Source: a virus. Taken from it: a stretch of DNA of 34,419 bases. A program made the position numbers and the translations under genes. The first letter of the stretch is position 1; each line of letters opens with the position of its first letter. The stretch is from positions 1 through 34,419 of IMG/VR virus record IMGVR_UViG_3300032242_000972, one strand, 5' to 3'. Under the pieces are notes generated by a model, which saw only the letters and a list, made by a program, of their open reading frames with translations, made no database searches and was not told the origin of the DNA. Below are positions 18,054 through 25,891 of this stretch, in pieces.

Positions 18054-18694
18054 GCGCCGCCAACAAGGTTCTCGGAGTTCTATTGGAGAGCCGCAGCAAT
18101 CGAGACAAGCAAACCCATGTTGGGCCTAGCGAGATTGGTGGCTGTCGTCGCCGCGTCTGGTATCGCCTTAATGGCACACCCGAATGCAACGACACACTCA
18201 AACTGCCAGCACTCATGGGCACCGCCATCCACCGCATGTTGGAACGAACCGCCAGCAAACACGATCCGTTTGGCACCGATTGGCAGATTGAAGTGGAACT
18301 GGTGCACGACGGCCTCATGGGTCATGCCGACCTGTACAGCAGCGCAAACCGTGAAGTGGTGGATTGGAAAACCACCAAGAAGGCATCGCTCAGCAAATTC
18401 CCGAGCGAACAACAACGTTGGCAGGTGCAGTTGTATGGCTGGCTGGCTAACGCCAACGGCCTTCCCACCGAAACGGTCACGCTGGTTGGCATCCCGCGAG
18501 ACGGCGACGAGCGGAACATTGTCGTCCATTCGGAACCGTATGACGAAACGGTGGCGCAGGAAGCGCTGACGTGGTTGTCCGAGGTGCGCGACATGACCGA
18601 ACCGCCACCGCCACAGGAAACGCGCCGGTTCTGCTCGTTGTACTGCTCATGGTTCGACGGTGAGGGGGTCAACGGGTGTCCAAGTCGTACATGA
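18050..18694 (+). CDS. Cas4/RecB-like PD-(D/E)XK nuclease with Fe-S cysteines
   Basis: 214 residues from an ATG overlapping the previous stop. Motifs in order: GPSEIGGCRRRVWY (C32), GTAIHRMLE (H61), GHADLY (D94), VVDWKTTK (D105, K107), WQVQLYGW (Q127), then C195-x3-C199-x10-C210. The split C + CxxxC + C set matches the 4Fe-4S cluster of Cas4/AddB-type nucleases. It probably resects DNA ends to feed the RecT-like annealer; such pairs are common in phage recombination. No cas genes or CRISPR arrays are present, so a CRISPR role is unlikely. Confidence 0.85.
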   Translation: MSAANKVLGVLLESRSNRDKQTHVGPSEIGGCRRRVWYRLNGTPECNDTLKLPALMGTAIHRMLERTASKHDPFGTDWQIEVELVHDGLMGHADLYSSANREVVDWKTTKKASLSKFPSEQQRWQVQLYGWLANANGLPTETVTLVGIPRDGDERNIVVHSEPYDETVAQEALTWLSEVRDMTEPPPPQETRRFCSLYCSWFDGEGVNGCPSRT

Positions 18695-19044
18695 AAGACA
18701 TGCCAAACCTTCAAGGCGCACGCTGCCGCGAGGTCGGCCCGGACATGATGTTTGTGTTCGATGAAGCGCAACCAATTCGGGGACACATAGCCACCTCACG
18801 CAACCGGCACCTGTCGGCATCGTTGCGTGCCATGTGCGCCTCATGTCCCGTCCTGTACCCGTGCTTGGAATGGGCCATGCCCAATGAGAACTACGGGTGG
18901 TGGGGTGGTCTGTCAGCGCAAGAACGCGAAATGGTCAGACGCCGTGGCGTTGCTGCTGACGCCGTGGTGTATGCGCTGGAACGTCTGCTGGACATGGGAG
19001 CCGATCCCGACATTACGCGACTGCTGGAACGTGATGCCGCATGA
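18676..19044 (+). CDS. WhiB-family Fe-S transcription regulator
   Basis: 122 residues from a GTG with GAGGGGG upstream, overlapping the nuclease gene by 19 bases. C17-x36-C54-x2-C57-x5-C63 provides the four cluster ligands, and GWWGG (74-78) is the family signature. A basic EREMVRRRG follows for DNA contact. WhiB proteins are confined to actinobacteria and their phages, and some phage members act on host WhiB regulons. Here it could switch phage or host transcription at the onset of replication. ATGA overlap with the initiator gene. Confidence 0.92.
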   Translation: MSKSYMKDMPNLQGARCREVGPDMMFVFDEAQPIRGHIATSRNRHLSASLRAMCASCPVLYPCLEWAMPNENYGWWGGLSAQEREMVRRRGVAADAVVYALERLLDMGADPDITRLLERDAA

Positions 19045-21903: not shown

Positions 21904-22443
21904 ATGGCTGCAAAAAGTTTTCCCGTTGCAATGGTTCCAGTGGATCGACTCAGCCCATACCCCGGCAATGCACGCCGAGGCAACGTGGAACGAATCGCGG
22001 AATCCCTTGCAGCGTATGGACAATGGCGTCCCATCGTGGCGCAAAAATCCACCGGACATGTGCTGGTTGGCAACCACATGCTGCAAGCAGCCACCAGCCT
22101 CGGCTGGGGATCGCTGGCCGTCTATTGGATGGACGTGGACGACGACACCGCCCGACGCATCTTGCTAATGGACAACCGCAGCAGCGACGGCGCGCTGTAC
22201 GACGACGACGACCTCCGAATGCTGTTCGAAGCATTGGACGGTGACGTGACAGCCACCGGCTGGTCAGAAGCCGACATGGAAAAACTGTTGCGCGACATAG
22301 ACGAGTCAGACGTAAACACCGAACCCATGCTGCCGTCCTATCAGTACAACGTGATCGTGGAATGCCGAGATGAAGCGCAACAAGCCGAACTGCTGGCTCG
22401 GTTTGAGGCTGATGGCCTGACATGCAAGGCGCTGGTCACATGA
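21904..22443 (+). CDS. ParB/sulfiredoxin-fold protein
   Basis: 179 residues from the ATG at 21904 (GGGAGC upstream; GTG 21838 and ATG 21871 are in-frame alternatives). N-terminal ParB fold: VPVDRLSPYPGNARRGNVER, then GQWRPIVAQKSTGHVLVGNH with G-N-H in place of the usual G-H/E-R. C-terminal domain (about 142-179; YQYNVIVECRDEAQQAELL) is ferredoxin-like and common in phage ParB proteins. This fold acts as a CTPase, nuclease or nucleotide-binding partner. No ParA gene is seen, so plasmid-type partition is unlikely. ATGA-coupled to the ABC/GNAT fusion. Confidence 0.85.
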   Translation: MAAKSFPVAMVPVDRLSPYPGNARRGNVERIAESLAAYGQWRPIVAQKSTGHVLVGNHMLQAATSLGWGSLAVYWMDVDDDTARRILLMDNRSSDGALYDDDDLRMLFEALDGDVTATGWSEADMEKLLRDIDESDVNTEPMLPSYQYNVIVECRDEAQQAELLARFEADGLTCKALVT

Positions 22444-23624
22444 AAATCAGCGTGAACGTGTCAACGCCAATCCCATCATCAGTGCGAGCGCGCCAACTGG
22501 AAGCCATGTTTGACGTGCCACGGGCCGAGATGAGCGCGCTGGCATGGGAAGGCGACATGCCTATCGAGCAGCGGGAATGGAACGTTGGCCTGATTGTTGG
22601 CCCCAGCGGTTCAGGGAAAACCACCATCGCTCGGGACGTGTTCGGAGATTTCGCTCAACCCGAATGGCACAGCCTCAGCGTCGTGGATGATTTCCCTACC
22701 AACGCCAGCATGGAAGACATCGCCGCCATCTGTCAGGCCGTTGGCTTCAACACCATTCCGGCTTGGTTGCGACCATACGACGTGCTATCCACCGGCGAAA
22801 AGTTTCGCGTGGACATGGCTCGACTGCTGCTGGAAGCATCCGATGTCACGGTCATGGATGAGTTCACCAGCACCGTGGACCGGCAGGTAGCCAAGATTGG
22901 CAGCCACGCCGTCCAGAAATACGCCCGCAAACATGGCAAACAGTTCGTGGCGGTCACCTGCCATTACGACGTGCTGGACTGGTTACAACCAGACTGGGTG
23001 CTGGAACCAGCAACCATGACGTTCACGTGGAGGTCGGTTCAACCCCGACCACTCGTCAACACCACTATCCAGCCTGTTCCTTACTCCGCATGGAGGCTGT
23101 TCGCTCCATTCCACTATCTGACCAGCGACCTTAACCGCACCGCCCGATGCTGGTGCCTATTCGTTGACGACCAACCCGCAGCATTCGCTGGCGTCCTACG
23201 CCGACCGCACCCCAAAGCCAAAGACATCATGGGCGTGTCCCGTCTTGTAACGCTGCCAGACTGGCAAGGCCTCGGCTTAGCCTTCCATCTGGCCGACAAC
23301 ATTGGCGGCGTGTACAAAGCCATCGGTGAAAGGCTACGAACCTATCCGGCTCATCCAGCCTTGATCCACGGTTTTGATCGGTCACGCATGTGGCGACTGG
23401 CACAGAAACCAGCCTACGGTTCAGGCAACAGCAGCAAGACAGGCCCAAACGCCACCATTGGCAGCCGCAGCCGAGCATCCGGCGCCAACATTACCGGCGA
23501 TATGGGATTACGTCAGGCAAAAACATGGGCACACGGCAGCCGCCCCTGCGCCGTGTTCGAGTATGCCGGACCAGCACACGCCGACCACAAGGAAGCCGCC
23601 GACCTTTTCGGGTTCTGGAAATGA
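22440..23624 (+). CDS. ABC-type ATPase fused to a GNAT acetyltransferase-like domain (COG2401-like)
   Basis: 394 residues. The N-terminal ATPase has Walker A GPSGSGKT (54-61), signature-like LSTGE (116-120), Walker B VTVMDE (136-141) and an H-loop H175 in CHYDVLDW. There are no membrane spans, so it is not a transporter. Residues about 205-394 form a GNAT-like domain: SRLVTLPDWQGLGLAFHLAD has Q276-G-L-G279-L-A281, fitting the Q/RxxGxG/A acyl-CoA loop. The ABC+acetyltransferase arrangement is known from COG2401 and resembles the GNAT fold of phage Mu Mom, which modifies adenine. A nucleic-acid modification role here is inference. Confidence 0.85.
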   Translation: MKISVNVSTPIPSSVRARQLEAMFDVPRAEMSALAWEGDMPIEQREWNVGLIVGPSGSGKTTIARDVFGDFAQPEWHSLSVVDDFPTNASMEDIAAICQAVGFNTIPAWLRPYDVLSTGEKFRVDMARLLLEASDVTVMDEFTSTVDRQVAKIGSHAVQKYARKHGKQFVAVTCHYDVLDWLQPDWVLEPATMTFTWRSVQPRPLVNTTIQPVPYSAWRLFAPFHYLTSDLNRTARCWCLFVDDQPAAFAGVLRRPHPKAKDIMGVSRLVTLPDWQGLGLAFHLADNIGGVYKAIGERLRTYPAHPALIHGFDRSRMWRLAQKPAYGSGNSSKTGPNATIGSRSRASGANITGDMGLRQAKTWAHGSRPCAVFEYAGPAHADHKEAADLFGFWK

Positions 23625-23989
23625 CACCCGAAACACGTTCAACCTCAATGTGGACCGACATTGCGCTCATAGACGTGGAAGAAGCAATCCTCCACCTACG
23701 GTTCCGCCTGTTACGTCACGCCGACGCTGCCAACCGTCTCACCACACAACCCGGCTACCTGTCACGCATCAACCGGATCACTCAAGAAATCCTTGAACTC
23801 TCCAACGACATCATCCAATGGCAAAACCTGCTGCGCGCTACGACACTAACCGAAACCGAATATCCACCAGACGCGCCCGCAACCCATACAACTCCTGAAC
23901 CGCCAACAACCCCGACCGACCCGACACATGACCATACGCCGCTGGGTCGGACAGCAAATCCTCCCTACGAAACCACCCCACATACGTAA
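23621..23989 (+). CDS. Hypothetical helical protein with Thr/Pro-rich tail
   Basis: 122 residues, ATGA-coupled to the ABC/GNAT gene. The first about 75 residues are helical (IALIDVEEAILHLRFRLLRH, ITQEILELSNDIIQWQNLL). The remainder is Thr/Pro-rich and low-complexity. The last 152 bases lie opposite the 3' part of the ASCH-domain gene, so the tail's composition is probably shaped by that antisense gene. Not recognised; context suggests a partner of the ABC/GNAT protein. Confidence 0.5.
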   Translation: MTPETRSTSMWTDIALIDVEEAILHLRFRLLRHADAANRLTTQPGYLSRINRITQEILELSNDIIQWQNLLRATTLTETEYPPDAPATHTTPEPPTTPTDPTHDHTPLGRTANPPYETTPHT

Positions 23990-24146
23990 CCGTGGCAAAC
24001 GCAAACGGCGGCAAATCGTAACGACACCGCAACGCCACCCGCTCACCTACCACCGGCAACCGAGACGACGGACGACGCACCGTCCGACACTTCACACCAG
24101 CCAAAATCGGCTCCACATACCGCCCCTGAAACCCCAAAACCGCCAC
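23838..24146 (-). CDS. ASCH-domain protein on the opposite strand
   Basis: 102 residues from GTG 24146 (GTG 24173 and TTG 24185 are in-frame alternatives; none has a strong ribosome-binding site). AVLGFQGRYVEPILAGVKCR then TVRRP, VVGERVALRCRYDLPPFAFA and TVTYVGWF reproduce the ASCH pattern, including the GxKxxTxR element (K-C-R-T) that holds catalytic Lys/Thr in the YqfB N4-acetylcytidine hydrolase. ASCH domains bind or process RNA and modified nucleosides. It is the only leftward gene outside the lysogeny block and overlaps the + strand gene tail-to-tail by 152 bases. Expression has not been shown. Confidence 0.7.
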   Translation of the reverse strand: MAVLGFQGRYVEPILAGVKCRTVRRPSSRLPVVGERVALRCRYDLPPFAFATVTYVGWFRREDLLSDPAAYGHVSGRSGLLAVQELYGLRARLVDIRFRLVS

Positions 24147-24177: not shown

Positions 24178-24633
24178 ATGACCAAGACACAACGAGCCGC
24201 CGAAGCAATCGAGAACGAGCGCCGCGTAGTCGAATTACGCCTAGTCGGACTCACGTTCGACCGCATCGCTGAACAGATCGGCTACACCGATGGCTCAGCG
24301 GCCTACAAGGCCTACCAACGAGCCATTGCCCGCACGGTCACCCAACCGGCTGAGGAATTGCGTGACGTGGAACTCGCTCGGCTGGATTCGCTGTGGCGAG
24401 TGAATTACCGAAACGCCATGACCGGTGATGCCAAAGCCACCTTGGTTTGCCTGCGAATCAGTGAACGACGAGCGCGACTGCTCGGCATGGACGCCCCCAT
24501 CAAGACGGAGATGGAACTTACGGCGTATCAAGGCGGGACGGACATAGATCGGGAGGTGGAGCGCCTTGCAGCACTCCTCAACGAGTCTGCTGGCGGCAGC
24601 AAGGCTGCTGTGGCTGCAACAAGCCCGGCCTGA
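24178..24633 (+). CDS. terS: Terminase small subunit candidate
   Basis: 151 residues. An N-terminal HTH (about 1-45; RVVELRLVGLTFDRIAEQIG, YTDGSAAYKAYQRAI) is followed by a helical region (LARLDSLWRVNYRNAMTGD, ATLVCLRISERRARLLGMD) and a C-terminal tail. This pattern is typical of actinophage small terminases that recognise packaging sites. It overlaps the large-subunit gene by 68 bases. Could also be a plain HTH protein, but the adjacent large terminase makes the call likely. Confidence 0.8.
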   Translation: MTKTQRAAEAIENERRVVELRLVGLTFDRIAEQIGYTDGSAAYKAYQRAIARTVTQPAEELRDVELARLDSLWRVNYRNAMTGDAKATLVCLRISERRARLLGMDAPIKTEMELTAYQGGTDIDREVERLAALLNESAGGSKAAVAATSPA

Positions 24634-25891
24634 GCAAATACCTGACGACACCGCCGACTGGGACGTGTACATCGCTCGCTCTGGACGTGGTTGGGGTAAG
24701 ACGCGATCTGGTGCCGAATGGCTCGCTTATCAAGCGGTACGCGAACCCGGAACCCGTTGGGCGGTCGTCGCTGCCACGTTCGCCGATGCTCGCGACACCT
24801 GCGTGGAAGGCGAATCAGGACTGCAAACCATCCTGAACCGCTACCGGATGATCCGCCGATGGAATCGAAGCATCGGCGAGATTGACCTCCGCAACGGTTC
24901 CAAAATCAAACTGTTCTCCAGCGAAGAACCAGACCGGCTTCGTGGACCACAGCATCACGGCGCATGGTGTGACGAATTAGCGGCATGGAAATACCGAGAC
25001 ACCGACACATGGGACAACCTCCAATTTGGTTTACGTCTCGGCGATAACCCGCGCGTGTTCGTCACCACCACACCACGACCCAAACGGCTGCTCAAGTCGT
25101 TGTTCAAGGACCCGCGCGCCATCGTCGTCAGCGGTTCCACCATGGACAACGCTGCCAACCTTGCACCATCACAGGTGGCCCGCCTTGTCGCCAAATATGA
25201 CGGCACACGATTAGGTCGCCAAGAACTGCTCGGTGAACTGTTGGAGGACACACCGGGCGCTCTATGGACCATGAGCAACCTTGACGACCACCGCGTGGAC
25301 ACAGCACCAGCACTGGTACGGATCGTGGTCGCCGTCGATCCGGCAATCACCGCCAACGATGACTCGGATGAGACCGGCATCATCGTCGCTGGACGAGACG
25401 CGCTCGGCAACGGGTACGTCCTCGCCGACCATTCCGGTCGTTACACACCGGACGGATGGGCGCGTGCCGTATGGGATGCCTACGAGCAGCACAAGGCGGA
25501 TGCCGTCGTCGTGGAGGTCAACCAAGGCGGCGACATGGTGACGCACACGCTCCGATCCGTGAACAACAGCGGCAGCATCCGCACCGTCCACGCCTCACGC
25601 GGCAAACGATTACGCGCCGAACCAATCAGCGCCATGTACGAGCAAGGCCGCATCCATCACGTGGGAACCATTGGTGCCCTTGAGGATCAGATGACCACAT
25701 GGACACCGGACGACCCCAAATCGCCTGACCGTTTGGATGCTCTGGTGTGGGCCATGACCGACCTCATGGATTCCGGTGGCACCGACGCATTCATCCGCGC
25801 CATAGCGACCACATGCGCCTGCGGTTGGCCCAACCTGCCATCCGCCTATGTGTGTACACGATGCGGGCAACCGTTGGGAGGTGCCGCATGA
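24566..25891 (+). CDS. terL: Terminase large subunit with C-terminal zinc ribbon
   Basis: 441 residues from TTG 24566, which has GGGAGGTGGAG just upstream. Walker A G40-RGWGKT46, Walker B with D136/E137 (AWCDEL), coupling motif VTTTPRP (167-172). Nuclease domain acids D258 (VVAVDPAI), E317 (VVVEVNQ) and D391 (DRLDALVWA). The motor packages DNA into the prohead and cuts it. The C-terminus carries an extra Cys4 ribbon (C417, C419, C430, C433; CACGW and CTRCGQPL) beyond the core. The start overlaps the small subunit by 68 bases, an unusually long overlap. Confidence 0.93.
   Translation: MQHSSTSLLAAARLLWLQQARPEQIPDDTADWDVYIARSGRGWGKTRSGAEWLAYQAVREPGTRWAVVAATFADARDTCVEGESGLQTILNRYRMIRRWNRSIGEIDLRNGSKIKLFSSEEPDRLRGPQHHGAWCDELAAWKYRDTDTWDNLQFGLRLGDNPRVFVTTTPRPKRLLKSLFKDPRAIVVSGSTMDNAANLAPSQVARLVAKYDGTRLGRQELLGELLEDTPGALWTMSNLDDHRVDTAPALVRIVVAVDPAITANDDSDETGIIVAGRDALGNGYVLADHSGRYTPDGWARAVWDAYEQHKADAVVVEVNQGGDMVTHTLRSVNNSGSIRTVHASRGKRLRAEPISAMYEQGRIHHVGTIGALEDQMTTWTPDDPKSPDRLDALVWAMTDLMDSGGTDAFIRAIATTCACGWPNLPSAYVCTRCGQPLGGAA

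Follow-up and report, generated by a model that had tools for sequence, protein, structure and literature searches.

A terminase-adjacent ParB, ABC/GNAT and ASCH-like gene cluster is a probable phage DNA-modification cassette that takes the place of Mu Mom

Why would a phage keep a ParB-fold protein, an ABC ATPase fused to a GNAT acyltransferase and an ASCH-like protein together beside its terminase genes? In the window, i.e., the whole of IMG/VR virus record IMGVR_UViG_3300032242_000972 (34,419 nucleotides), the genes of this region run in the order SSB, HTH, ParB, ABC/GNAT, a small plus-strand ORF, a minus-strand ASCH-like gene, an HTH/TerS-like gene, the large terminase subunit (TerL) and the portal. 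The best explanation of this arrangement, which we consider likely, is a phage DNA-modification cassette that would fulfil the role of Mu Mom through different machinery; its ABC/GNAT protein is most likely an ATP-dependent acyltransferase acting on phage DNA, a functional equivalent of Mom that is not itself a detectable homologue of it. The features of the locus are as follows:

21904-22443, plus strand: ParB protein, with the ParB/Srx-fold domain at 21904-22323
22324-22443, plus strand: tail domain of about 40 amino acids at the C-terminal end of the ParB protein, with a beta-alpha-beta pattern judged by eye
22440-23624, plus strand: ABC/GNAT fusion, 394 amino acids, the ATG at 22440 overlapping the ParB stop codon
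22440-23039, plus strand: ABC ATPase domain, residues 1-200 of the fusion
23040-23624, plus strand: GNAT domain, residues 201-394 of the fusion
23621-23989, plus strand: small ORF with an ATGA overlap with ABC/GNAT, its C-terminal part overlapping the opposite-strand ASCH gene
23838-24146, minus strand: candidate ASCH-like protein, 102 amino acids, GTG start, convergent to ABC/GNAT
24178-24633, plus strand: HTH protein, probable small terminase subunit (phrog_645, E 2e-30), directly before TerL
24566-25891, plus strand: terminase large subunit (Pfam Terminase_6N, E 2e-25; Terminase_6C, E 5e-19)

The ParB and ABC/GNAT genes, and likewise the ABC/GNAT gene and the small ORF, overlap as ATGA and are therefore probably translationally coupled. 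The first-pass annotation, which had grouped the three domain types as one nucleic-acid modification cluster, needed correction on the strand of the ASCH gene, whose minus-strand orientation is opposite to that of the other genes and which shares about 150 bases with the plus-strand ORF 23621-23989. This small ORF matched no Pfam family at E<=0.1, and its Thr/Pro-rich C-terminus is probably an incidental result of ASCH coding on the other strand. The 'RNase E' label carried by phrog_645 on gene 24178-24633 is doubtful; the position of the gene and its HTH suggest a small terminase subunit, and the label looks wrong. A WhiB gene at 18676-19041 (Pfam E 1e-12) suggests an actinobacterial host for the phage, and the nearest known relatives of the window terminase are mixed.

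The ABC/GNAT fusion with an acyl-CoA loop, as first annotated, is real: the protein matched Pfam ABC_tran (E 1.3e-7) and Acetyltransf_1 (E 4.8e-5) as well as, over the whole length of the family, phrog_11143 of unknown function (E 1.7e-92, residues 11-383 of 400). The ABC domain contains Walker A (54-61), signature (116-120), Walker B (136-141) and D-loop (144-147) motifs and His175. In alignments with 47-49 relatives, reaching down to about 30% identity, Walker A, LSxGE, the DE of Walker B, the D-loop, the H-loop and the Q-G-x-G acyl-CoA loop of the GNAT domain were invariant or nearly so; the invariant columns were G50-K60, S117/G119, D140/E141, H175, R268, P273 and G277, and the invariant or near-invariant positions of the GNAT domain were F221, H225-Y226-L227, R268, P273, Q276-G277-x-G279, W318 and F373. 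The AlphaFold model of the whole protein had a mean pLDDT of 88.5, and because a Foldseek search with it returned ABC matches only, the GNAT domain was folded separately (mean pLDDT 84.5). The top PDB matches of this second model were all acyl-CoA GNATs (E ~1e-6), the nearest folds being protein N-acetyltransferases such as RimI, GCN5 and NAA80. Features of acyl-CoA binding are thus found both in the sequence, as the loop, and in the fold model, which matches ordinary acyl-CoA GNATs. A specific kinship of the GNAT with Mom, toward which the initial comparison had pointed, was not recovered: the ABC/GNAT protein had no Pfam match to the Mom family PF25680 at E<=1, profile comparison of the GNAT with a narrow and then a broad Mom set (hhalign) was not significant (probability 0.2-0.3%), and the Mom structure 8bv8 was absent from the top 50 PDB fold matches of the GNAT (Foldseek).

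Relatives of the ABC/GNAT protein occur in phages of Gordonia, Rhodococcus, Arthrobacter, Streptococcus, Lactococcus, Oenococcus, Pseudomonas, Porphyromonas, Aeromonas and Leptospira, and also in genomes, mainly of Planctomycetota and Actinomycetota, where the terminase family of the window often lies 0.1-1 kb downstream (about 20 loci with a window-type terminase at this distance). The carriers include lytic actinophages, one T4-like phage and prophages. Relatives were retrieved by means of conserved peptides, as the best 80 per scan, so the counts given here describe close to middle relatives, and counts of locus clusters do not equal counts of independent events. Several Gram-positive phages encode ABC and GNAT in two separate but coupled genes, misnamed 'ABC iron siderophore transporter'. 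Examples are found in Lactococcus, Streptococcus and Oenococcus phages (L084:7974-9028, L086:5968-7037 and L087:5977-7037), in which the GNAT is annotated as hypothetical and, in two of the three loci, the ParB upstream of the split genes is annotated 'DNA modification methylase'.

The ParB fold of the upstream protein, already recognized in the first reading, is likewise clear: the best PHROG match was phrog_723 (ParB-like, E 1e-39), PHROG ParB families ranged from E 1e-39 to 1e-34, phrog_498 (ParB-fused DNA methyltransferase) matched at E 4e-23, and Pfam ParB_N, at E 0.02 below cut-off in the window protein, is above cut-off in relatives. Overlooked at that stage was that the C-terminal 40 or so amino acids form a separate conserved domain, the tail. 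The gene directly 5' of ABC/GNAT in relatives encodes either a ParB protein or, in Mu-like phages, a stand-alone protein of about 50 amino acids that is homologous to the last 40 or so residues of the ParB protein; phrog_28816 matches the stand-alone tails at E 4e-10 to 6e-20 and the window ParB protein at E 2e-4. When the tail profile was run against the 131 non-redundant ABC/GNAT loci listed (85% identity clusters), a tail was present upstream in 119 of the 124 testable loci, within 2.6 kb and directly adjacent in 95; seven loci were truncated by a contig end and five had no upstream tail. Two of these five, both in Planctomycetota genomes, encode ParB, tail, ABC and GNAT as one polypeptide (L108:5272-7107 and L166:5386-7140), and in L090, L091 and L092, which hold distant ABC/GNAT relatives, no tail was found by profile search. 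Conservation of the neighbourhood, run as a set test, therefore holds for ParB-tail plus ABC/GNAT across many phyla; among the loci listed, it is the tail and not ParB that is the constant partner of ABC/GNAT.

Because the tail is nearly constant upstream and ParB is often absent, we infer that the tail docks onto or activates the ABC/GNAT protein and that ParB is optional. The proposal that ParB guides the enzyme is plausible, but ParB is dispensable, as many Mu-like loci have the tail without it. The ParBs that accompany Mom or a methyltransferase lack the tail, and those of a PAPS-reductase type gave only partial, low-score matches. In the latter loci (L206 and L208:1-3094) a ParB is followed by a PAPS-reductase-like gene and ends in 'FDDE.QQ..W...L..LK', with tail E-values of 8e-4 and 0.011; this end may be a related docking tail that serves a different modification enzyme. 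A profile search of the tail against the PDB matched only short helical pieces of repeat or designed proteins, and these matches were judged spurious.

The case for DNA modification comes from where the ABC/GNAT gene stands in two settings. The first is that of Mu-like phages, in which the order is Com, tail, ABC/GNAT and formyltransferase. The Com of Pseudomonas phage Komp_PAO1_1 matches Pfam PF10122 'Mu-like prophage protein Com' (E 9e-21), and a Com model built from ABC/GNAT loci recovers Mu's own Com, annotated as 'translational regulator of Mom'. Com was found in 12 of the non-redundant loci listed, all of them tail-only, and in Porphyromonas phages the ABC/GNAT gene sits at the right end of the genome, like mom in Mu. 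In the Mu-like Pseudomonas and Porphyromonas phages (L088:5683-7727 and L089:5876-7604) tail, ABC/GNAT and formyltransferase lie near the mom position, with Com present in the Pseudomonas phage; the Porphyromonas record annotates the tail peptide as an anti-CRISPR candidate, which is contradicted by the family of the tail.

The second setting involves ParB and the terminase. The Arthrobacter phages GravityBall and EastWest are syntenic, with identities of 54%, 62%, 57% (ParB), 83% and 47% (clamp) along the flanks; between the common flanks, GravityBall has Mom (PF25680, E 3e-60) and EastWest has ABC/GNAT. Among the best 80 Mom loci related to GravityBall gp71 (L213-L292), a ParB of the same type lies within 2 kb of Mom in 76 and a window-type terminase within 1 kb in 13, and tail, Com, formyltransferase and ABC/GNAT were found in none. 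Furthermore, in phage Shambre1 a ParB-methyltransferase fusion holds a place like that of the window, before TerS, TerL and portal. The Mom slot behind Com is a property of the Mu-like relatives; the window itself has the ParB-terminase setting, which is also common to Mom. Given the 76 of the best 80 Mom loci, often beside a terminase, phage DNA-modifying enzymes in general seem to have ParB as a partner. The exchanges with Mom in two unrelated settings, taken with the ParB-methyltransferase, argue that ABC/GNAT does the same task, the modification of phage DNA. The earlier suggestion of a modification comparable to that by Mom is thereby strongly supported, by context in both replacement settings and not by similarity of the GNAT.

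The ASCH assignment of 23838-24146 is the weakest of the domain calls. The only homologues of the protein are those of L004 and L017, where the gene is convergent as in the window; it matched no Pfam family at E<=1, the cut-off of the ASCH profile was not reached, and a tblastn search of phages gave no match. The L004 homologue matched an ASCH family in Pfam at E 0.13 only, and a profile of the three sequences had YqfB, an N4-acetylcytidine amidohydrolase, as its best PDB match at E 0.04 only. K19, T22 and R24 are invariant in the three homologues and align with Lys21, Thr24 and Arg26 of YqfB (K-x-x-T-x-R), so the K-x-x-T motif noted at the outset stands, and the two convergent homologues show that the ORF is real. 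The variable region of the homologues has no conserved Glu for the catalytic Glu74 of YqfB, and the YqfB profile match ends before that residue.

Across the family, the slot directly after ABC/GNAT is filled in two ways. Members of one clade (SH-aLRT 100), with or without ParB, have a Formyl_trans_N protein (Pfam E 1e-12 to 7e-21) encoded 3' of ABC/GNAT, and in the other clade there are two ASCH subfamilies. The slot holds 16 ASCH genes, 15 of them convergent, against 0.9 expected from their density elsewhere in the loci, an enrichment of about 17-fold (binomial p 4e-12, optimistic because of shared ancestry). ASCH is absent from most of the ABC/GNAT loci listed, and at least 8-13 gains or losses are needed on the tree, which indicates that the association recurs. 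Formyltransferase and ASCH never accompany the same ABC/GNAT in the loci listed. One locus (L019:850-5181) carries two different ABC/GNAT systems in tandem, one with a formyltransferase and one with an ASCH gene. The commoner ASCH subfamily has G-x-K-x-x-E-x-R and lacks the Thr nucleophile, its relatives also occur in phages without ABC/GNAT, and a comparison of the profiles of the two subfamilies gave no significant match. Since the commoner ASCH lacks the nucleophile and is found without ABC/GNAT, a role as reader or regulator is at least as likely as one as eraser. The idea that ASCH reads or removes the mark thus gains from the enrichment in the slot and loses from the missing Thr in one subfamily and the apparent lack of a Glu74 counterpart in the window protein. 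Clusters of antisense ORFs were shadows of conserved genes and were ignored.

Could the substrate be RNA? TmcA, an ATPase-GNAT fusion, makes N4-acetylcytidine in tRNA, and the ABC/GNAT protein might act in a TmcA-like manner, with a YqfB-like ASCH removing or recycling N4-acylcytidine. The combination of ATPase and GNAT is the TmcA layout too, and YqfB tops the PDB matches of the window ASCH profile, at E 0.04. YqfB hydrolyses N4-acylcytidines (PMC6972931). However, the ATPase here is an ABC and not a helicase, RNA cytidine acetyltransferase appeared only as a weak match to the loop (E 0.14), ASCH is missing from most loci, and both the replacement of Mom and the terminase setting favour DNA; this reading is unlikely.

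We rate it no more probable that the ABC/GNAT protein acetylates a protein, such as host RNA polymerase, a restriction enzyme or a packaging protein, for the benefit of the phage, as the phage GNAT Rac does. Against DNA as the substrate, the GNAT is similar to N-acetyltransferases in general, and proteins are the targets of many of these, RimI, GCN5 and NAA80 being its closest folds; some phage GNATs are known to modify proteins of the host (PMC7824862), and ABC and GNAT could work together on another substrate. Protein acetylation leaves unexplained, however, the obligatory ABC ATPase, the ParB partnership, the control by Com and the exchange with Mom and with a ParB-methyltransferase.

ParB and ABC/SMC-like ATPases cooperate in chromosome segregation, and with a terminase 0.1-1 kb downstream in about 20 loci, ParB and ABC might form a partition, packaging or transcription device in which the GNAT is secondary. 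This is quite improbable: the acyl-CoA loop of the GNAT is as invariant as the ATPase motifs, the Mu-like loci are found at the other end of the late region, frequently without ParB, and the retention of GNAT as a separate but coupled gene in some Gram-positive phages indicates that it is kept as an enzyme. Least probable of all is that prophages carry the genes as a defence or toxin-antitoxin module, for although GNAT toxins exist and the ABC part weakly matches mad3 of the MADS defence system (PADLOC, E 7e-11), that match covers ABC motifs only, no other defence model fits, and the carriers include lytic actinophages and a T4-like phage, with the genes embedded in the phage late region.

In the DNA-modification cassette that we favour, the tail at the ParB C-terminus would dock onto the ABC/GNAT protein encoded by the overlapping next gene, and the ABC domains would dimerise on ATP and load onto or move DNA. 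The GNAT would then move an acyl group from acyl-CoA to an exocyclic base amine, for which adenine N6 and cytosine N4 are the natural candidates; the identity of the base and of the acyl group is a guess, as are the roles of ParB, which might position the complex on phage DNA or give NTP-dependent control, and of ASCH, which in the window system may bind or hydrolyse the acylated nucleoside. In sister systems the formyltransferase may formylate the acyl product. Modification would precede packaging of the DNA by the adjoining terminase, and the DNA would thereby escape restriction. A broader form of this proposal has about even odds of being right: a widespread system distinct from all those characterised, in which a tail-recruited ABC motor drives base acylation by GNAT and the accessories are interchangeable, with formylation or an ASCH reader/eraser according to clade.

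If the proposal is true, phages of Actinomycetota, Planctomycetota, Bacillota, Pseudomonadota and Bacteroidota have in common an uncharacterised, Mom-replacing DNA modification, and an acyl or formyl-acyl base would join the known restriction-evasion marks along with a new DNA-writing enzyme. A decade-old prediction would become testable in cultured phages (Jace, EastWest, Komp_PAO1_1, P335 and the Porphyromonas phages), and GravityBall and EastWest offer a one-for-one natural exchange for comparative nucleoside analysis.

The core idea is not new, as ABC-coupled GNATs were predicted to acylate a DNA base by Iyer et al. 2013, restated in the Jumbo Phages article (PMC7824862), which names Tenacibaculum phage pT24 for a predicted ABC-ATPase and GNAT system. 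A limited literature search found no experimental work on ABC/GNAT modification and nothing published on the tail, on a link with Com, on the exchange with Mom or on a slot that alternates between formyltransferase and ASCH; parts of the gene context may be in Iyer 2013. The pT24 system belongs to the same protein family (direct match to the window protein, tblastn E 2e-50) and has the same predicted chemistry; pT24 encodes its ABC and GNAT in two genes, with no tail found there, whereas the window system also has ParB-tail and ASCH. The window ASCH has in common with YqfB the K-x-x-T-x-R of the ASCH fold; no residue of the three-homologue alignment matches Glu74, which lies beyond the end of the YqfB profile match. 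Mom, both of Mu and in its ParB-associated form (PF25680, 8bv8), shares with ABC/GNAT the slots behind Com, behind ParB and beside the terminase, membership of the GNAT superfamily and a similar H-Y motif early in the domain; in contrast to Mom, and with no profile or top-50 fold match to it, ABC/GNAT has an ABC ATPase, a tail and an intact Q-G-x-G loop. The ParB-fused DNA methyltransferases (phrog_498) have the same type of ParB in the same place before TerS, TerL and portal, as in Shambre1, but the putative modifier in the window is a GNAT with an ABC motor, and its ParB ends in the tail.
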